Shown here: positions 31,658-49,405 of the stretch, one piece after another
Layout of the letters: each line of letters begins with the position of its first letter
Numbering within the stretch: position 1 is the first letter of the stretch
Assembly (NCBI GenBank): GCA_007674295.1
Contig: CM017450.1
Location: 62,001-126,000 of the forward strand
Origin: Antonospora locustae
Taxonomy: Eukaryota > Microsporidia
DNA length: 64,000 nt
Reading direction: 5' to 3'
The notes under the pieces: generated by a model
Told to the model about the DNA's origin: nothing
Database searches by the model: none
The model's input: only the letters and a program-made list of their open reading frames with translations
Translations under genes and position numbers: made by a program

Positions 31658-34600
31658 ATGGAAATTCAGGAATGTCTCCTGCTCAAAAGCAGCGAAGAAG
31701 CATCTTCAAAGACGTGCATCCGCTTCTTTGTATACGAACCAAATGTGTGCAGAAAAATAGAACTGATTACAAGGTTAGTTGGTGATCTGAAGTCCATTGC
31801 GATAATCTGCGAGGGACCGTCCAAGTTGAGAGCAAAGCTTCTAAACTATCCAAAGTGCCTCACCTACAAGGATAGGGCTGAAAACAAATACCGTGTTCTT
31901 GTATTTGAAGACTGCAGAACATACGCCGAAATAAAAGCTGCTGAGGAGTACGCAGGCGCAGGTTTTCGGATTCTAGCATTTACCGACCATCCTTCGCTGT
32001 TTCTTGAGTACAGCAGGAGATCAATTAGAGCTCTATGCTCTATGCACACGCAAGTAGCGTTTTATAAAAACGTATTTGAAAAAAGCAAGCTCGTCTTCTA
32101 CAGGTGCAAGGGCAGAAGCTTGCTGAGCACACGGCAATCCGTTGCACAGACAATAGGGGAGACAGATGTGTTAGGGGCTGCAAGCGACGGCTGCCAAAGA
32201 ACAGAGATGTGTGTATGCAGTGTCTGCGCAGGCGATACGAGAGACATTGTTGAGGTCTATACAAATAACAACGATTTCAGAAAGACAGCATACATATCTC
32301 ACAAACTCAGAAGACTTGAAAGGATTATTGAGCTGCTTGGTGACACGTTTGTGGTGATGGTATCAAGCCAGGAGAGAACAAGCATATTACTAGCTAATCT
32401 ATACGGTGGCAAGCACGTAAAGACTGTATCGGGGCTTATCAGAACAGAGAGAATGATATTTGCCACTTTTGCTTACCTACGTGACAATGAACAGGAAACG
32501 CTGTGGACCTGTTCTATTGCAGGCATGCATGTCTATTTTGTTTACTTTGACTTTGACTTTTACTGTTTAGGAGAAAACAGGTTTTTGCTTCTACCAGAGA
32601 AGGATAGGGAGAAGCTCCTTGAGTTAATTATGCTCGAAGAGCAAATCGTCTTGAACAGTGGTGACTGTACGATGGACATGCAGAAGAGCACCAAAAGAGA
32701 TGATGTCCTGCCCGTAATGTCTTATGCACTGTGGACAGAAAGCCACGGCAAAGATGCTTTCAGAGACTCTGTAACAAAAAGTAATGAGCCTTCTGTGTTT
32801 CAGAAGAGGAACGCCATACGAGAAGATGCCTGCACTCGACATACGGGCAAAAGAGAGAAACAGGAAGCTTTGATTGAAGTTGATGCAGACATCGACAGTT
32901 CTATTTTGTCATCACACTGGGTTGTACCATCAAAGAGGCTCATTGGTGCTGGAAAAAGGAAAAGACTGCTTATCAGAGACGAAGACGTACTTTCAAGGGT
33001 TGGAATAGTGCATGCTAAAGTGCAAACACCATTGCGAATCCTAAGTCTTACTGCGTCTGCCTGCACACGTGCTCTGCAAATTTCTATGCTCAAGTTGGGG
33101 AATGTTTCATCTCATTCTACATTTAGCGATGCAATTCTGCTTTCAGATGCAGGAACATTTTGTTTGCAAAACGGAAACATCAGCATTATGTATGTTGCAA
33201 ACGGACGGACTTACAAGCTTGTGCTGTCACTTTTGGACCTGGATCCGTTTGTATTTGTGCACTCGGCGCCCGAAGAAGAATGGACTTACTTGACGATGAC
33301 AACTAAGAACTTCTTCAAGATACTTTGTCTCAATGAAGAAGAAGGTTGCTGGAAGAGAATGTCAATCAAAAACATGCCCGAGTGCAGAGACAGGTATGAT
33401 GTTCAGTTTAGAACAAAGTTCGAAGTAGCTGGTGTACTGAGAGACCACTTTGCGTCTTTTGCTTTAATGTACTCCTCTCTTGCAGAGTGCAGCGCCGGAT
33501 TGACGTTACAAGAAGTAAGAACGATGTGCAGACACCTTTCCTTTGAAGAGTACTATTACTTAGAATGCTTTCTAACGCAGAAAGGCAGATTTGTGGCAAA
33601 CAGAATGACCGCAGAGGATCTGAAGTGTATCAACAGCTTCGGCTTTATTAATGTGATAAAGAGACTGGATCGTGTTGTAGACTGCAGATTTGTGGATATC
33701 AGCAGCAAAATAGAAAGTATACTAAGCACCACTGAATGCAGAGGTGGACAAAAAGCAGAAGACACGGCGATGTATGGAAGAAACATTCACAACTCAGGTG
33801 AGAGTATCGCCTTGGTGAAGAGCGCAATACACACACCTTTCAGAGTATTTTATCTCTATCCTTCACTAACAGGGTCGAACAGAGTGCTTCGTGAGTTTGA
33901 CGAAGACAAGTTCATTCGAGTGGGGTTTAGAGAGGAAAATATGGTTGATAGAATTGCTAGAGCAGGCTCGCAGGACAACACTGAAGTGTTTGAACATTAC
34001 AGGTTTCTACTTAGAGATGGCATGTACGTTGGAAGAAGAAAGTTTTTCTTTCTGGCAATGAGCTCGAGCCAGATGAAACTGCACAATGCGTGGTTTGTCA
34101 CGCCATACATTGTGAGGGGGACACTGGTGGGGCCTGATTTTATTCGCTCGTGGATGGGCGACTTTTCCGCAATAAGGAACATAGGAAAATATGCTGTAAG
34201 GCTGGGACAGGTTCTAAGCACAACAAGAAAGACATTTCCCATAGCCAGGCACAGAGAAGTGAATGACATTGCCAGAAATGGTTACACATTTAGCGATGGA
34301 ATAGGCATGGTAAACAGAGCAACCGCAGAAAGAATTTCGTCATGCCTGCGACTTGCAACAACACCTTCTGTATTTCAGATCAGGTTTGCAGGATACAAGG
34401 GAACTGTATCCGTCTGCAACATGCAAGATGATCTTGTTCTGAGGCCTAGCATGAGGAAATTTGAGTCGAAACACAGCATGCTGGAGATTGTTGCGCATTC
34501 GCAGAGAATCCCATTCTATATGAACAGACAGTTCATAATGATTCTTGAGTCTCTGGGCGTGCACTGGAGCGTGTTTGTCAATATGCACGACTACCATGTG

Positions 34601-37591
34601 TTAAAGACTCTCAGAAAAAATGGCTTTGTGAACAAAAACTTTTTGCATGCCAGAAGAACAAAGGCTTGTGCGGGAGAGGGTATGTCAAACAGCACGTCTG
34701 AAGTCTCTAGTGGCCCAAATGGGGGAGACAGCGAATGTGTTATTTCCTCTATCGCAGAGATGGCATTCCTTTTGGAAGGAGCATCGAGGCTCTGCCGAGA
34801 AAGGTCCTTCGCCTGCATAGGCTGCACGTTTTCTGAGTTGAGAGACAGATCGCGAGTTTTTGTGAGCAGGGGAAGAACGCTGATGGGTGTTTTGGACGAA
34901 GCGGGTGTTCTAGAGGAAGATGAGGTGTTTGTGATGAGTAGAATAAACGAGGAAGACGACATTATAGATGATATGGTTAATGTTCGCGGGGAATATCTTG
35001 TTGTAAATACGACTGCAATCATCGTAAAAAACCCATGCCTACATCCAGGCGACCTGAGGATTGTCAAGGCAGTTGACGTTCCAGAGCTCTACCATCTAAA
35101 AGAGTGTGTTGTGTTCAGCCAAAAGGGGGCAAGACCGGTGTTTAACATGTGCTCTGGATCCGACCTCGATGGTGATATGTATGCAATATCCTGGGATCGT
35201 AGACTTGTGCCACCCGTGTCTGCCGACTCATACGCATATGCAGATGTTGTTGCGTTGCACAAGGAATTTGTTTTGATGACAGATGTTGCGAACTTCTACG
35301 CAAGATACATGCAGGACGATCAAATTGGGCTTATATCAAACGCACATCTTGTTTTCTCGGATATGTCCGAGGACGGCGTCAGAAGCAAAGAAGCGTTGAG
35401 ACTAGCAACTCTTTTTAACATGGGAATTGACTTTGCCAAGACAGGATATGTGGCAACACTTCCGTTTGACCTTTTCCCAAAGTTCGCACCTGATTACATG
35501 GAGATTTGTGGGGGTAGAAGATACCTGAGCATAAAGGCAATTGGAAAGCTATACCGCAGAACATCCTACCTGGTCTTTCCTGAATATGCATTTTGCAACT
35601 GTACACAGTGTTTGTGTTCGAGCGAAAAAATCAATTATCCGGACGCCGTGGAAAGATACATGACCGAAGGCTGTGAAGTGGCAGAGAGATACGGAAGTGG
35701 TGAATTAAAAACTCTTAGAAAATACAAGAAGGAGTTGGCATGCAACGAGGCGCGGGCCCTTGCGTGGCACAAGGCTGGTGCAGAGAGAAGTGGCCACTCG
35801 CTTTTTCCATTTCTTGTGGAAGAATTTGTGGACGTGAGTAAGTACATCTGCAGAGAAGAGGGAAGTGACATTTTGAAAAATATGTTGCAGATGTTCAACA
35901 TTCCTCACGAACATTTTGTTCTGAATGAAAGCATAATTTGTGTTGACTATGTACATAGCAAAAAGCTAGATGAGATCAGGGCTTATGCTCGGAAGTGCCT
36001 TCAAGCACAAAAGACCCATGTCTTTCAGGACAACTTTGCATATTTGAGCATTTCTGGAACGTCAGTGGTGCTTGTAAAAGCACAGAGACTGGCCCGCATT
36101 CAAGAGGCAATAATACCTAGCATATATAAGGTACTCAGTGAGTTGTTTGTGATTCTTTTGTCGATGAAGTTTATTTCTGTGGCAGACTTTGACAACGCGC
36201 TTAGCTTTGTTGAGTTTATCATAGAATCAATGATGAGCAGTCTCACAAAAGAGCATCTGGTTGAGGTGCTTGTGAAAATCTCTTCTGACTTCTATTCAGC
36301 AGAGAAGTTCAATCTGAGCAATTCGTTCAAGGAATTTCTTTTGTTTGGTATTGGCTCTGAGTGTCATTTGAAGACAAGCACCGACCTCTTAGTGCTAGGA
36401 CAGTACGCGCCATCTACAGCAGTGGGCGGCCAGCCTGTTGTGCACAGCAGAATGCAGAGAGAACTTTCTCTTGAGCACCGCTCCAACTCGCTCCTAGCTG
36501 CTGCCCTGCTACTTTCAACGCCTCTGAGTCTAAGATACAAGCTACGGATCTCCCAAATTGTATCTAGATGCCACGCTTTTGACGTCTGCAGCAAGAGCGT
36601 CGTACGAGAAAAAAACATACATATATGCAGACAGAACGAGATTGTTGTGATTGGAATGTTTGACCACAACGACGAAGTGTACCTCACTCTCTTCAAGGAA
36701 ATACGGCCAGCAAAGCACAAGGAGTCGCATGCACTCGTTCCTGACCTTTTGAACTTTGGGTCCTCGTCAGTATTAATATACAAAGACCACCTGAGAAAAT
36801 TTGTAATGGGCCATCTCCAGTACAGCATGTCTTCAGTATATGTTAGAATAACTCTAGGAGTGCTCTATCTCTACGACGTACCTTTGCATTACAGAAACAA
36901 CAATATCAGCATCAAAGACCTCAAATCACTTGCTAGTTTTGAAAGAACGGGGCACTTGAAGGCTTGTTTTCAAAAGGGAATTTCCTTTTCTGTAGAATGT
37001 AACGACCACCAGCTTGCTGAGCTTGGGCTCCGCAAAAAAGGTAGGGAAAGGTGCTATGTTCTGCGCCTTCGCAAGGAAAAGACACTGTATACAGTATACA
37101 CAGACCACAATGGAGTAGCAGAAAAGATCGTTGCAGGCCGCAAGACGCAGGGGCACTGTCTTTTCGTAAGGCCAAATACTAAAACGAGATGCGACTTGAA
37201 TGTTGAGGTGATACAAGAGAATGTGTTATCGCTTTCGTGTCTTCCCGAAGAACTGGGCTTTCTTTCTGCCGGAAGTATTTTGTATATGCAAGGAAAGAGA
37301 TGCGTGTTGAATTCAGTTTGTTCTGAGTTCAGTGATGTAAAGCTAACGATGTGCACATACTTGACTGCATTTTGTGGCCAGGACGTCGAAATTCGGCTGG
37401 GACAGGCCCGTAAGTTCTTTGGAGCAGAATGCACTGAGTATGATGCATACAATTTCATGGAGTCACTGAACTTTCAGAGCCAATGCACATCGTCTAAACG
37501 CAGAGATGCAGAGAGTGCTTTTGAGCATTTGTGGAAGAGCCTCTGCCTTCTTAATGATATCATCTCTGCAGTAAGTAAGACTCAGCCTTGA
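31658..37591 (+). CDS. Giant RNA-dependent RNA polymerase with eroded helicase-like N-terminus
   Basis: A 1977-residue cellular RdRP of the RNA-silencing class (QDE-1/Rdp1/RDR family). The core spans about residues 620-1370: LSFEEYYYLECFL, then YLYPSLTGSNRVLREF, and the catalytic loop GSDLDGDMYAISWD with DLDGD at 1169-1173. Residues 1-360 look like a worn Dicer/RIG-I helicase: VLVFEDCRTYAE for the DExH box, RILAFTDHPS for motif III, HKLRRLERIIELLGD opening the second lobe, and a KDREKLLELIMLEEQ ending; no GKT Walker A is seen. The last ~600 residues are unassigned. Fungal RdRPs are usually 1200-1400 residues. CACCCTAGC precedes the ATG. Confidence 0.92.
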   Translation: MEIQECLLLKSSEEASSKTCIRFFVYEPNVCRKIELITRLVGDLKSIAIICEGPSKLRAKLLNYPKCLTYKDRAENKYRVLVFEDCRTYAEIKAAEEYAGAGFRILAFTDHPSLFLEYSRRSIRALCSMHTQVAFYKNVFEKSKLVFYRCKGRSLLSTRQSVAQTIGETDVLGAASDGCQRTEMCVCSVCAGDTRDIVEVYTNNNDFRKTAYISHKLRRLERIIELLGDTFVVMVSSQERTSILLANLYGGKHVKTVSGLIRTERMIFATFAYLRDNEQETLWTCSIAGMHVYFVYFDFDFYCLGENRFLLLPEKDREKLLELIMLEEQIVLNSGDCTMDMQKSTKRDDVLPVMSYALWTESHGKDAFRDSVTKSNEPSVFQKRNAIREDACTRHTGKREKQEALIEVDADIDSSILSSHWVVPSKRLIGAGKRKRLLIRDEDVLSRVGIVHAKVQTPLRILSLTASACTRALQISMLKLGNVSSHSTFSDAILLSDAGTFCLQNGNISIMYVANGRTYKLVLSLLDLDPFVFVHSAPEEEWTYLTMTTKNFFKILCLNEEEGCWKRMSIKNMPECRDRYDVQFRTKFEVAGVLRDHFASFALMYSSLAECSAGLTLQEVRTMCRHLSFEEYYYLECFLTQKGRFVANRMTAEDLKCINSFGFINVIKRLDRVVDCRFVDISSKIESILSTTECRGGQKAEDTAMYGRNIHNSGESIALVKSAIHTPFRVFYLYPSLTGSNRVLREFDEDKFIRVGFREENMVDRIARAGSQDNTEVFEHYRFLLRDGMYVGRRKFFFLAMSSSQMKLHNAWFVTPYIVRGTLVGPDFIRSWMGDFSAIRNIGKYAVRLGQVLSTTRKTFPIARHREVNDIARNGYTFSDGIGMVNRATAERISSCLRLATTPSVFQIRFAGYKGTVSVCNMQDDLVLRPSMRKFESKHSMLEIVAHSQRIPFYMNRQFIMILESLGVHWSVFVNMHDYHVLKTLRKNGFVNKNFLHARRTKACAGEGMSNSTSEVSSGPNGGDSECVISSIAEMAFLLEGASRLCRERSFACIGCTFSELRDRSRVFVSRGRTLMGVLDEAGVLEEDEVFVMSRINEEDDIIDDMVNVRGEYLVVNTTAIIVKNPCLHPGDLRIVKAVDVPELYHLKECVVFSQKGARPVFNMCSGSDLDGDMYAISWDRRLVPPVSADSYAYADVVALHKEFVLMTDVANFYARYMQDDQIGLISNAHLVFSDMSEDGVRSKEALRLATLFNMGIDFAKTGYVATLPFDLFPKFAPDYMEICGGRRYLSIKAIGKLYRRTSYLVFPEYAFCNCTQCLCSSEKINYPDAVERYMTEGCEVAERYGSGELKTLRKYKKELACNEARALAWHKAGAERSGHSLFPFLVEEFVDVSKYICREEGSDILKNMLQMFNIPHEHFVLNESIICVDYVHSKKLDEIRAYARKCLQAQKTHVFQDNFAYLSISGTSVVLVKAQRLARIQEAIIPSIYKVLSELFVILLSMKFISVADFDNALSFVEFIIESMMSSLTKEHLVEVLVKISSDFYSAEKFNLSNSFKEFLLFGIGSECHLKTSTDLLVLGQYAPSTAVGGQPVVHSRMQRELSLEHRSNSLLAAALLLSTPLSLRYKLRISQIVSRCHAFDVCSKSVVREKNIHICRQNEIVVIGMFDHNDEVYLTLFKEIRPAKHKESHALVPDLLNFGSSSVLIYKDHLRKFVMGHLQYSMSSVYVRITLGVLYLYDVPLHYRNNNISIKDLKSLASFERTGHLKACFQKGISFSVECNDHQLAELGLRKKGRERCYVLRLRKEKTLYTVYTDHNGVAEKIVAGRKTQGHCLFVRPNTKTRCDLNVEVIQENVLSLSCLPEELGFLSAGSILYMQGKRCVLNSVCSEFSDVKLTMCTYLTAFCGQDVEIRLGQARKFFGAECTEYDAYNFMESLNFQSQCTSSKRRDAESAFEHLWKSLCLLNDIISAVSKTQP

Positions 37592-42623: not shown

Positions 42624-45600
42624 ATGCTGCTACCATATTTGCAAATATCACTGCAGCCCATGACACCAGAGGAGCTCCGTGTATTTCGCAGTGCTGGTTG
42701 CAGGTTTCTACAGGAGCATGTACATTGCGATGTGGATGCACTCAAAGCCCAGTTTCTGGAATCAAAGTGTACAGAAACGTTTTTGCTGGTTCGTGAAGCC
42801 ATCAAGAAAAAAAGAGACGACAACCTTGTGATGCGAATTGTAGACTCGGACCATCTGGCACTTGTTGTTGGCGAATACATGCTCAAGTACGATATTCCAG
42901 CCGAGTTCATGCTGAATTTTCCCAAGCACGTACCATACATATTCTTGACGTACACAACCGTCCATAACATCTTTTTAAGCCACTTTGAGACTACTTTCGT
43001 TGATTTTGCAGGCTTTGGAATTTTGAAGGTTCTGTTGGACTCTAATCTCGACCAGGAGCGCTTGAAAAGCGCAGTATTAAGATGTACATGTAGAGTTGAG
43101 GGAATTGAAGAGGCCATTACAAAGCACGAGAGGTTCAGAGAAAAAACATTTCTGCAGAAGATATCACACATGATACTCCCCATGTACTCAGATGTTATGC
43201 TGCGCATTCATGGCATTCTTTCAGAGTACAACTTTTGTCTAGACTCTATGCAAGCATACCTGCTGCTGAAATCTGCTCTCAGAGACAGCAGATGCCGTAT
43301 TGACTTTGTGCAGTATCTTGCTGAGAAGCTTGAGCCTGGGTATGCTGCTGAGTACAAGGACATCGAAGAAACTCTTATCGTATTGCGCTCAAAATATCGC
43401 ATCTTGTTAACACATGTTGTGGCAGTGCTTTCAGACTCTATAGAGAAGCACTATCTTCTGACCTGCGAAGAGCGTACACTCTGTCCAAATAGCTGCATAC
43501 CATTACTACACAGCTGCATGTGTGTGGACATGTGCAGCCACTTTCAGAACAATTCTTGCACTGAAGGCCGCATAAATGGGTTCTACTTTTCCCTTCGTGA
43601 CAGAAACTATGCAACCTCCTTGATAGAAAAGTTCTTAAGCCAGGAGGCTCCCGTCGACAGTGTTCAGGGCATTGTGTTTCGAGAACAGATCCTATGCTTC
43701 ATGAGATACGCGCTTGAAAAACGAGAGCTGGGCATGTACTTTTGTAGAATACTCAGATTTAAAGACAAGGAGCTTACTCTGTGTGCCCTCGTTATGCTTT
43801 CTGACAACATCTTCTTTAGAAGATTGCGGGATGTTGAGGTGCTGCTTCCTGTTCAAGGAAAGAAAATGGAGGTAGAGTTGATGGACATCTACAGACTCAT
43901 CATGAGCGGAAACATGCAGGATGTATACTCGCCGCCTGAAAGCAGCATGTGCAGTACAGGACATGTAAATGGCTTTTACATGAGTACTTTCATTGATTAC
44001 GTTATCTACAAAGAGAGTGTTGCAGTGCTTCTCCAGGTAGAGGTGTTTGACATTGCCGAACACCATCACAAGCTGACCTCTACCGTGCTGGAAAAGTACA
44101 TTGAGAACAGAGATGTGGGTGACGCTTTCATCGAGATGCATTTTGAAAGATACAAGGAGATAATACTGAGGGCTATGCTTAGGAAAAAGCAGATAATTCA
44201 AAGCTACCAAGTGGTGATTCCCTGCTTCAAGGGAGTACTGAGGGACATGGCATTTAAGTGCGTTGTCAGAGAAGAGCTGTATCGAATAACGAAAAGCCCC
44301 AAGGAGGCTGCAAGGGCTACGCTGAGTGAAAGAGAAGCCATTATAGTTTTTGAGTATCTCAGAAGCTCTGAAGAGCTAGAAGATGGCTCTCGAAGAAAGC
44401 GAGAATGCAGAAACGCCATAAGTCAGCTCGTAAGAAAGTGCAACCTACTTTCAACAGGAAGTTATGCAGATGTGCATCTTAACATGAGTAATGCAGATAA
44501 CATACACAACGCACTGCGTGCATGCAGTGAAGAAAGCACAAATGCAGAAAGGGATGCTTTTAGACTAAAACTCACAAAGAAAAGTCACAAAGACGCAGAA
44601 AAAATAAAGGAAAACATGGCCAAAACGAATTCTGTGGTTCAGCAAGATGTTATGAATGCGTTTGCAAACGCATTGGAAAGCGGAGTGGTGGAAGATCGCG
44701 TTTTAGAAGAGATTGCTGCAGAAATAACGAAGTACAGGCACGAAATAGGGTTTTTGATATGCTCTATGCTCAAGAAAAAGAGGCAACTGGAAAGCATGGC
44801 ACTTGTTTTCTCAGCACTTCTGAATAGACTAGAGCCAAGTGCCTCAACATTTTACATCAGAAACATACTCTCGCACTCTAGCGAGTCGATGTTTGTAAAA
44901 GGGTCCATGAGGTTTGTAGAACTTCTATTATGCAATTTAAATAAGATAGAAACTGAGGCTGCAAGGTTGTTTATAAGGGCCAATCGATATGCAAAAAGCT
45001 TCAAGTTTCTTGAGCACATATTTCAGAAGATAAACTATGCAGATATGATGAAGTGTCTACAGACATTGAAGTGCAAGATGAAGAAGGATATGATTTCGCA
45101 TATCTGTGGGGGCATATCTTCCTGTGCAAGCACGAACCTAGAGAAAGAAGAACGCATATCTTTTCTAAAGGGCATGATTGCAGACCTCATCAAGGACAAC
45201 AACGAGCTGATAAAGATTATTGGATTGAGGCTGCTAGGCCAAAACATGCTCACAAATAACAGTCTCTCTGCAGCAAAGAGCAATGTGCATGGGCCAAGCG
45301 ACACTTGTGAGTTATCTGCATATAGTGAAAGCCCTTTCAGTCACAGGGAGCTGTTAGACGTTTCAAATGAAGCATCTGAGCTGTTGAACTCAAGCGATGA
45401 ATTTGTAGTAACAGAGGCCCTGGACGTGCTTAAGATGGCTGTTTTTTTTTCGAGCACCTTAAATTGCAAGGCTTTTGATCTTCTGTACCGGCGTGCCAAG
45501 CTTGACAATATTGGCAGAATATGCATAAATATTTTGGACATCGGTGCTCTAGAGAAGACACAACTAGACAAGCTTTTTCAGATGTTCTATCTTGACCCTC

Positions 45601-46118
45601 TGTCCTTTATTGATGTACTGCCCAGGCTCAAGGCGTTTGGATACGAACCAACTAGGGAAATGATCAACGAGCTAATTTTTCTTATGCCAAAGATCTTCTG
45701 CAACGAAAAGCGTATGATTGTATACAAAGTGATAAGCGACAATGTTGACTCAACATACATAGATGCAATTTTGAATGCAGCTTCTGCAAACAACTTGAAC
45801 TCGCAGCTTGTTCTAATATCTCTGCTGGAAAGAATCACGCCACATGTTGACATGAAGATGTTTATAAGGCTGTGCACGATTATTCCAACAGACAGGCGGT
45901 TGGCTATAAGAGTGTTAAGAGTTCTGGAGAATAAAACGAGAGGATGGTCGGTGCCCGAGAAGTGGATGGTGGAGAAGCTTGACATGTTGATGGTGTGGAT
46001 ATACCCGCTCCAGATGGAAGACAAATGCTATTACGAGCAGTTATGTGCACGTGTGAGAGTTAAAGACCCGGAAGTATGTGCTGCAGTGAAAGACTACTAC
46101 GCTAGAAAGTGTGCATAA
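42624..46118 (+). CDS. Large alpha-solenoid protein of unknown function
   Basis: A 1164-residue protein that I do not recognise. It is built of repeated amphipathic helix pairs in the HEAT/ARM style, with no membrane segment, zinc motif or catalytic signature. A charged linker (about 640-670, KKSHKDAEKIKENMAK) separates two solenoid halves. By size and fold it could be a scaffold in ribosome assembly, nuclear pore, coat or chromosome-condensation complexes, but no diagnostic motif decides. An alternative start is the second ATG at 42660. Confidence 0.85.
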   Translation: MLLPYLQISLQPMTPEELRVFRSAGCRFLQEHVHCDVDALKAQFLESKCTETFLLVREAIKKKRDDNLVMRIVDSDHLALVVGEYMLKYDIPAEFMLNFPKHVPYIFLTYTTVHNIFLSHFETTFVDFAGFGILKVLLDSNLDQERLKSAVLRCTCRVEGIEEAITKHERFREKTFLQKISHMILPMYSDVMLRIHGILSEYNFCLDSMQAYLLLKSALRDSRCRIDFVQYLAEKLEPGYAAEYKDIEETLIVLRSKYRILLTHVVAVLSDSIEKHYLLTCEERTLCPNSCIPLLHSCMCVDMCSHFQNNSCTEGRINGFYFSLRDRNYATSLIEKFLSQEAPVDSVQGIVFREQILCFMRYALEKRELGMYFCRILRFKDKELTLCALVMLSDNIFFRRLRDVEVLLPVQGKKMEVELMDIYRLIMSGNMQDVYSPPESSMCSTGHVNGFYMSTFIDYVIYKESVAVLLQVEVFDIAEHHHKLTSTVLEKYIENRDVGDAFIEMHFERYKEIILRAMLRKKQIIQSYQVVIPCFKGVLRDMAFKCVVREELYRITKSPKEAARATLSEREAIIVFEYLRSSEELEDGSRRKRECRNAISQLVRKCNLLSTGSYADVHLNMSNADNIHNALRACSEESTNAERDAFRLKLTKKSHKDAEKIKENMAKTNSVVQQDVMNAFANALESGVVEDRVLEEIAAEITKYRHEIGFLICSMLKKKRQLESMALVFSALLNRLEPSASTFYIRNILSHSSESMFVKGSMRFVELLLCNLNKIETEAARLFIRANRYAKSFKFLEHIFQKINYADMMKCLQTLKCKMKKDMISHICGGISSCASTNLEKEERISFLKGMIADLIKDNNELIKIIGLRLLGQNMLTNNSLSAAKSNVHGPSDTCELSAYSESPFSHRELLDVSNEASELLNSSDEFVVTEALDVLKMAVFFSSTLNCKAFDLLYRRAKLDNIGRICINILDIGALEKTQLDKLFQMFYLDPLSFIDVLPRLKAFGYEPTREMINELIFLMPKIFCNEKRMIVYKVISDNVDSTYIDAILNAASANNLNSQLVLISLLERITPHVDMKMFIRLCTIIPTDRRLAIRVLRVLENKTRGWSVPEKWMVEKLDMLMVWIYPLQMEDKCYYEQLCARVRVKDPEVCAAVKDYYARKCA

Positions 46119-47878: not shown

Positions 47879-49405
47879 TTATTCACACTTCACATCTTTT
47901 ATGGGAACAGAGGATTTAAACTTCTTGAGTCCTAGAGTGAAGTACTCCTTTATCTTTTCCTTTGCATCCTGAGTCTTGATAATCTCATAGGCCATTCCGT
48001 TTTTGACCTTTCTTCGCAGAACAAATCCCTCGTTCACAAGACGATTGACTGTGTTTCTTGCGTAGTTGTGGCTTATACCAATTCTTTGTGAGAGCCAGGA
48101 CACGCTTTCGAGATTTTCGTTGTATATGATGCTGAGTGTGCGCCTGAATATTGCAAGGTTTCTGTACAGATAGAGCGACTTGGCATCCTTTTCTGTGCAC
48201 AGGATGCACACGTACTTGCCCGTAGGTATTCTCCTGTCTGTGTTGGTGAAGAACCCACAGCAGACAGTGTGCAGCCATGAGTTGCACATGTCGCAGTACA
48301 GCATGTCTGAGTCCGAGATGTTGATGTTGCAGATACACCTAACCTCATCTCTCTTCGCCTTTGGTCTCAACTGGGCATTCAGGGAAGATATCTTGTTCTT
48401 CTGCGCAGCAGCCTTTTTCTGTACACCAGGTGTATCCTCATGCTCTTCTTTTTGGGATACGGAGCTCTTCTTCTGGAGGCGACATGCAGGGACGACTTCC
48501 TTTATACATCTCTGACTGTATGCGTCCTTGCTGCATGCATCTCTGAGTGCAGTTTCATCGTATCCCATGTAAGCTGCCTTACTGTCACCCATGTAATGTG
48601 CATCTGCTTGTGGGCCCCGTATATCCATATCCTGATGCACATTTAAAACACTTGCAGCGATGCTTCTATTCGTGCTGGACACTGAATTACATTCTGTCTT
48701 CTGGCTGAAGTATTCTGAGGGGGCACTGTGCATACCTTGTGTGCTGGCAAGCAGTTGTGAGTTGCACGCGCTCTGCTGGCTCACAGGCACTTGCGAACTT
48801 GCTCTGCGAGCATTCTTGTCGAAAAGGCTGCTGATAAACGCAGTGGCACAGCCCTGCTCAACTCTGAACGAGTTTAGATCCAGCTTAAGGGGCTCTGTCT
48901 CAAACAGAAATTGGTGGTTTGTGGATGCCTTGAAGCCTTCTGGTTCGTAATCGTAGGGCGTCTTTTCGTTGTAGAACAGTTTTAGAGTTATGAACTTTCT
49001 GGGCGGAAGAGGCTCAAGAGTCTGTGTCAGAAGCGACAGTGTTCTGATCATCTGAAATATGGAGTTCTGTGTTTCCTTATCGTAGCTGAACTCCAGTGTA
49101 TATGTCTCGCTGACCTTCTCGGGGCTAGCCTCGTCAAGGTATACTGCAAGCACAAGCTTTCGCAGATACCTCTTCTGAAATGCATCCTTCACACTAACCT
49201 TGTACCAACTGATAAACAGCGACGAGTTTGGACATGCCGGTGTGAGAATCTTTGCCTCCACAGTGTCAATACTCTTAGTTGCAAAGTACGAACTTGGAAA
49301 GAAGTTCCTGAGGTATGAGATAGTACTGAAGAGAATCTCAAGAGTCTCTGTTATCTCCACCACAACCTGCTCTTTTGTTGTCATGACCACACTTTGCATT
49401 TGCAT
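47879..49405 (-). CDS. HOP1: Meiotic HORMA-domain protein Hop1, with PHD finger
   Basis: A 508-residue protein. The N-terminal HORMA domain (about 10-190) is seen from ISYLRNFFPSSYF, YTLEFSYD and FITLKLFYNEKTP. A disordered Gln/Ser-rich middle follows. A C4HC3 PHD finger runs from RCICNINISDSDMLYCDMCN to YVCILC (about 345-395), and a winged-helix-like domain with basic residues ends the protein. HORMA-PHD-winged-helix is the fungal Hop1 architecture of the meiotic chromosome axis, where it promotes interhomologue recombination. Start choice among ATG codons 1, 3 and 8 is open. Confidence 0.85.
   Translation of the reverse strand: MQMQSVVMTTKEQVVVEITETLEILFSTISYLRNFFPSSYFATKSIDTVEAKILTPACPNSSLFISWYKVSVKDAFQKRYLRKLVLAVYLDEASPEKVSETYTLEFSYDKETQNSIFQMIRTLSLLTQTLEPLPPRKFITLKLFYNEKTPYDYEPEGFKASTNHQFLFETEPLKLDLNSFRVEQGCATAFISSLFDKNARRASSQVPVSQQSACNSQLLASTQGMHSAPSEYFSQKTECNSVSSTNRSIAASVLNVHQDMDIRGPQADAHYMGDSKAAYMGYDETALRDACSKDAYSQRCIKEVVPACRLQKKSSVSQKEEHEDTPGVQKKAAAQKNKISSLNAQLRPKAKRDEVRCICNINISDSDMLYCDMCNSWLHTVCCGFFTNTDRRIPTGKYVCILCTEKDAKSLYLYRNLAIFRRTLSIIYNENLESVSWLSQRIGISHNYARNTVNRLVNEGFVLRRKVKNGMAYEIIKTQDAKEKIKEYFTLGLKKFKSSVPIKDVKCE

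Follow-up and report, generated by a model that had tools for sequence, protein, structure and literature searches.

In this study, we analyzed a window of 64,000 nucleotides from the microsporidian Antonospora locustae (contig CM017450.1, positions 62,001 to 126,000) and found in it a gene for an RNA-dependent RNA polymerase (RdRP) with a degenerate helicase-like region at its N-terminus. A sequence-only reading of this window had proposed the fusion of an RdRP with an eroded helicase of the Dicer/RIG-I type, and this proposal was supported by a predicted two-lobed fold and by a profile match at the level of the protein family. The single RNA-silencing RdRP found in the genome would be the descendant of a helicase-RdRP fusion, with its SF2 motor dead and its two-lobed fold kept. 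A motor-dead fusion with a kept fold and a platform role is probably the best explanation as a whole, and the anatomy and origin of this pseudo-helicase-RdRP are, in our judgment, highly probable. The reading frame of 1977 codons (31658-37591, + strand) is uninterrupted, and its ATG coincides in the alignment with the point where P0002, the closest relative, begins. This relative showed 71% identity to the A. locustae protein at 100% query coverage, with a like architecture. The parts of the gene, in window coordinates, are as follows.

31658..37591, + strand: pseudo-helicase-RdRP fusion frame, 1977 amino acids, stop included (translation; P0002 has the same architecture)
31715..32107, + strand: RecA-like lobe 1, degenerate, residues 20-150 (AlphaFold elements E22-26, H30-41 ... 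E80-83, H89-100, E104-109; 69% identity to P0002)
31721..31756, + strand: motif I remnant, residues 22-33, with the strand and Y-x-P present and the GxGKT loop gone (alignments; G.GK[ST] ahead of the core in 0/14 microsporidian proteins)
31895..31921, + strand: motif II/DExH remnant, residues 80-88 (alignments)
31976..31999, + strand: motif III remnant, residues 107-114 (alignments)
32108..32293, + strand: low-confidence inter-lobe stretch, residues 151-212 (31% identity to P0002)
32294..32665, + strand: RecA-like lobe 2, residues 213-336, with remnants of motifs IV and V and a shortened motif VI segment (AlphaFold, profile alignments; 64% identity to P0002)
33056..33739, + strand: RDR-type N-terminal domain, residues 467-694
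33833..35560, + strand: RdRP catalytic core, residues 726-1301 (PF05183, E 1.4e-146; RDR2 chains, E ~3e-87)
35162..35176, + strand: catalytic DLDGD, residues 1169-1173 (motif check)
35594..35611, + strand: CxCxxC directly C-terminal of the core, residues 1313-1318, a possible metal-binding knuckle

The structure of the N-terminal region was predicted with AlphaFold using only microsporidian sequences as input. Residues 20-336 were modelled as two RecA-like lobes, and when the predicted N-terminal fold was compared with solved structures using Foldseek, SF2 helicases were the best matches and occupied the top ranks. A check for RecA-like lobes had been suggested by the sequence-only reading, and the prediction for residues 1-345 shows two. 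Residues 153-211 between the lobes, where a Hel2i insert would sit, were modelled at a predicted local distance difference test (pLDDT) score of <50. As seen in the profile alignment, this stretch is shorter than in the intact relatives, which carry a longer insert. These results indicate that a predicted two-lobed SF2 fold is present ahead of the RdRP.

The N-terminal region was also compared with the intact helicases of helicase-RdRPs by means of sequence profiles. An alignment-based protein search had returned only 2 matches and no further microsporidian relative, and a two-sequence profile (P0001 and P0002) did not match the intact helicases (P 0.068). The N-termini of 12 microsporidian proteins gave two colinear matches to them, one for lobe 1 (P 0.002) and one for lobe 2 (P 1.2e-4). 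A profile of 14 microsporidian sequences gave one alignment of 345 columns with a score of 69.05 (P 4.1e-8), running from before Walker A through the last helix of lobe 2. The best score among 200 control profiles, in which the match columns were permuted and the insert columns left in place, was 21.7, and three decoy profiles taken from elsewhere in the microsporidian RdRP family gave P values of 0.32-0.79. The 14 aligned rows of the decoy and motif VI analyses were P0001-P0013 and P0015, without P0164 and P0167. The profile score depended on the treatment of the columns. When insert columns were removed, the 14-sequence profile scored 33.95 over 50 columns (maximum of 150 shuffles, 21.5) and the 12-sequence profile scored 42.7 over 118 columns. 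When all columns were shuffled, two of 100 profiles scored 131 and 134, and these scores, spanning 4 and 8 columns at the profile end, are an end artefact.

Alignment with the intact helicase-RdRPs also bore out the order of helicase landmarks that had been read from the sequence: FEDC lies at motif II and FTDHPS at motif III. The lobe 2 landmarks were located as claimed, with HKLRRLERIIELL at its start and KDREKLLELIMLEEQ at its end. Proline 112, in the motif III remnant, was invariant in alignments A1 and A3 and almost so in A2. Judged by the sequences of the family, the N-terminal sixth of the protein is a helicase remnant, an assignment that one sequence alone does not support.

The motifs needed for ATP hydrolysis were then counted in the 14 microsporidian proteins whose N-terminus was readable (without P0003 and P0005, which are N-terminally short, and P0177, a fragment lacking the N-terminus) and in the 31 other proteins of the tree group described below. 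G.GK[ST] was found before the core in none of the 14 microsporidian proteins versus 21 of the 31 others. The Walker A motif had been claimed to be missing. This was correct for the GxGKT loop, which is lost, but the sequence ahead of it (about residues 22-28) still has the strand and Y-x-P, the latter kept in 13 of the 14 microsporidian rows. In motif II, none of the 14 aligned rows contained DExH (A. locustae reads FEDC), and two chance DE.H matches lay far downstream in P0012 and P0013. The motif VI segment was shortened in 13 of the 14 rows and the motif was missing from all of them in the alignment; by pattern, it was found in 28/31 other group proteins versus 1/14 microsporidian ones (P0004, away from the aligned place). 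Among the 31, 10 lacked G.GK[ST] and 3 lacked motif VI by pattern, and several begin after motif I. Given the loss of Walker A, DExH and motif VI alike, and the shorter inter-lobe stretch, the motor is not expected to work, and the helicase module looks dead from its sequence. A dead-helicase fusion had been thought unusual for a microsporidian. However, it occurs in every RdRP of the microsporidian clade whose N-terminus could be read, 14 in all.

The polymerase part was clearly recognized. PF05183 matched residues 726-1301 with an E value of 1.4e-146 and 490 bits, compared with the curated cut-off of 23.8, and besides this family nothing was found at E<=5 in a Pfam scan of the whole 1977-aa protein. 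DLDGD stands at residues 1169-1173, as previously read, and was found in 15/15 microsporidian and 16/16 helicase-RdRP proteins examined for the motif. A silencing RdRP had been placed at residues 620-1370; the enzyme is there, but its Pfam core is confined to 726-1301. The domain and the catalytic DxDGD identify the protein as a eukaryotic RNA-silencing RdRP with predicted activity. Of the microsporidian RdRPs, 11 of 15 carry the CxCxxC motif behind the core, compared with none of 16 helicase-RdRP relatives, and the motif is a possible metal-binding addition.

To place the protein, a tree of 79 RdRP cores was built after P0141, P0144 and P0177 had been dropped. The 16 microsporidian proteins formed one clade (support 100). 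Those named as microsporidian were from Dictyocoela, Binucleata, Pancytospora, Vavraia, Conglomerata, Gurleya and Edhazardia, and the others were assigned by tree position. The clade sits in a group of 47 rows (99*) with 28 of the 34 labelled helicase-RdRPs and three further proteins, namely P0151 with G.GK[ST], P0154 with DECH upstream of the core, and P0152, which begins at the core. The six helicase-RdRPs outside this group were two from corals and one each from a liverwort, an oomycete and Paratrimastix, with one further protein. A more careful tree of 63 rows left out 16 long-branch or near-duplicate rows, including the microsporidian P0010 and the six outliers of the first tree (P0146, P0148, P0150, P0153, P0157 and P0175). 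It again gave one microsporidian clade, and it split the microsporidia and helicase-RdRPs from plants and animals (100/99*). Roots were set for drawing only, and the trees included no sequence named Dictyostelium.

Paramicrosporidium saccamoebae is a close relative of Microsporidia. Its RdRP (P0031) has DEVH and QSRGRAR, and its gene model lacks Walker A. Because the microsporidian enzymes form one clade beside the helicase-RdRP fusions, their ancestor probably inherited a working fusion and lost its motor; loss before the sampled microsporidia diverged is the likeliest course. Rather than a singular fusion, the protein represents a known architecture in a derived form that the sampled microsporidia have in common. 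No description of a degenerate helicase in microsporidian RdRPs was found in the titles and abstract beginnings of the literature matches listed. In the same trees, P0131, a helicase-RdRP whose record is assigned to the rotifer Brachionus calyciflorus, grouped with other helicase-RdRPs and was distant from bdelloid RdRPs; the protein perhaps comes from a parasite that contaminated the record.

Helicase-RdRPs have been reported in Dictyostelium, oomycetes, Hydra and Nematostella (PMC4791657; this and the other articles are cited here from excerpts). The A. locustae protein resembles these fusions (the Dictyostelium, peronosporomycete, Hydra and Nematostella RDRs; P0031, P0079) in the order of its parts, helicase, RDR N-domain and RdRP core, and in its tree position among the labelled fusions. 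Unlike the intact ones, in which Walker A, DExH and motif VI are preserved, it has lost all three and is shorter between the lobes. It likewise differs from the SF2 helicases of Dicer, RIG-I, LGP2 and MDA5, as its module has neither ATPase motifs nor a confidently modelled Hel2i insert. In Dictyostelium, Dicers have no helicase and RdRPs have one (PMC4894637), and the Dicer of the A. locustae genome is similarly without a recognizable helicase, as in Dictyostelium and others in these excerpts (PMC4791657, PMC4894637). RdRPs of the plant RDR1/RDR2/RDR6 type and QDE-1 have the PF05183 core in common with it, and RDR2 also the fold of the N-domain. However, the Pfam lists shown for plant RDRs contain no helicase domain and the plant rows fell outside the helicase-RdRP group; QDE-1 was in no tree. 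A precedent for the use of a helicase-like domain is XPF, whose domain binds SLX4 and is required in crosslink repair (PMC5510004). The partner there is a DNA repair nuclease and not an RdRP, and the likeness in role is an analogy only.

Several observations weigh against a helicase fold that was kept for use. The A. locustae sequence by itself gave no signal with a hidden Markov model (HMM) of 23 intact helicase-RdRP helicases: it scored -0.2 bits, which was equalled by 55 of the 857 shuffles reported (1000 made). The ATPase motifs are all gone, the lobes evolve faster than the core (64-69% versus 80% identity), and the length of the N-terminal segment varies between genera. The latter three points favor the main rival, in which the lobes are a functionless relic that decays slowly and only the RdRP part matters. 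We consider this rather unlikely. Identity to P0002 is 69% in lobe 1 and 64% in lobe 2 but 31% in the inter-lobe stretch and 50% in the next linker, so that the lobes are more conserved than the adjoining stretches. Aligned with P0002, lobe 2 is free of gaps and lobe 1 has a single gap, and all 14 readable microsporidian proteins have retained an N-terminus that can be aligned. The identity pattern speaks for a putative constraint on the fold. An unrelated P-loop or Rossmann-like domain that was never an SF2 helicase is very improbable and was rejected, since the profile match is colinear over two lobes, lies at the corresponding place with respect to the RdRP and exceeds all 200 permuted controls, SF2 proteins head the Foldseek ranking, and the tree places the microsporidian RdRPs beside helicase-RdRPs.

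Some enzymes function with altered Walker motifs, and the predicted fold around the site is intact, which would suit lobes that still bind and hydrolyze ATP through a diverged site. However, motifs I, II and VI are lost together in all microsporidian rows examined, and we rejected such a live ATPase as extremely improbable. We likewise rejected, as scarcely conceivable, an artefact of assembly or gene modelling that joins two genes or transcripts; the frame is unbroken and 13 other proteins of the microsporidian clade share the architecture. In the motor-dead fusion that we prefer, the RdRP would convert target RNA into double-stranded RNA (dsRNA), and the dead helicase would serve as an ATP-free platform for holding RNA or for docking a partner, Dicer for example. 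Dicer would dice the dsRNA and Argonaute would use the resulting small RNAs. For the lobes, an ATP-free RNA or protein platform is the likeliest role, with chances that seem to us slightly short of even, and that Dicer is the docked partner is doubtful.

RNA interference (RNAi) in Microsporidia, including RdRP fragments of Spraguea, has already been published (PMC3749934). The sequence-only reading had suggested a search for Dicer and Argonaute, and one of each was found, together with one RdRP, in the 3,170,203 bases of the genome (17 contigs). The Argonaute matched the N, PAZ, MID and Piwi domains, and the Dicer has up to 1287 residues and two RNase III domains. Sequence signatures were present for the four catalytic patches of RNase III in Dicer and for the Piwi DEDH set in Argonaute. 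In the Dicer, Pfam showed no helicase and only a weak Dicer_dimer match below the cut-off (E 6.7e-4), and a single-sequence HMM search of its N-terminus for a helicase gave nothing above shuffles. The idea that Dicer residues 1-500 were once a helicase comes only from their position before this weak match and from publications that describe the Dicers of Microsporidia as reduced or as carrying incomplete helicases (PMC3486916, PMC12663654).

No other Dicer-class helicase was found when the genome was searched with P0079 (one candidate scored) and a plant Dicer (five scored); beyond the RdRP and Dicer, these searches gave weak matches only (E 3e-7 to 3e-4). Helicase_C matched 21 places, of which nine loci were read, none of them Dicer-like. 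The best of the nine scored 35 bits with the intact-helicase HMM, compared with 312 for a plant Dicer. An active, putative RNAi route is plausible. In infected locusts, injected dsRNA lowered an A. locustae transcript about 26-fold (PMC5697631), which fits an active route, but the host could be involved. RNA silencing in the sampled microsporidia probably runs without an RdRP helicase motor. We tentatively propose, with clearly less than even confidence, that RNAi-keeping Microsporidia have no Dicer-class helicase motor at all, having lost it from both RdRP and Dicer, and that their common ancestor repurposed the dead helicase as a clamp for RNA or a platform for docking, working without ATP and coupling dsRNA synthesis to dicing.

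Microsporidia with RNAi have been described as having larger genomes (PMC4435813) and more transposons (PMC7313128). In the A. locustae genome, the sole reverse-transcriptase (RVT_1) match was telomerase. Searches for rve, IS1595/Merlin-type and DDE_3 gave 0 matches with working controls, and a plasmid search found nothing. The piggyBac search also gave 0 matches, but it is uninformative as its control gave no signal either. The 3.17-Mb genome, with a full RNAi set, only a telomerase reverse transcriptase and no match for the four transposon families searched (one of them without a working control), stands apart from the published trend.

Other loci were observed in the course of the analysis. 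In the window, 47879-49405 (- strand) encodes a 508-residue protein that combines a HORMA domain with a PHD finger in a compact parasite genome, an architecture that we take to be of the meiosis type and Hop1-like. A frame of 1164 residues at 42624-46118 (+ strand) had no Pfam match at E<=0.001. Elsewhere in the genome, two genes that each combine ResIII with Helicase_C, with equal scores and both of 725 aa, lie on separate contigs (C2:248851-249855 and C3:256141-257145), the C2 copy about 18 kb from the contig end. The pair probably arose when a segment with one gene was recently copied.

In Dicer-type pathways, the selection of substrates and the movement along dsRNA are attributed to helicases. 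The remnant helicase would explain N-terminal parts of microsporidian RdRPs that have no Pfam annotation. With an apparently dead motor in the RdRP and, in the A. locustae genome, none seen in Dicer, although RdRP, Dicer and Argonaute all show their catalytic signatures, these parasites offer a natural test of what the motor is for.
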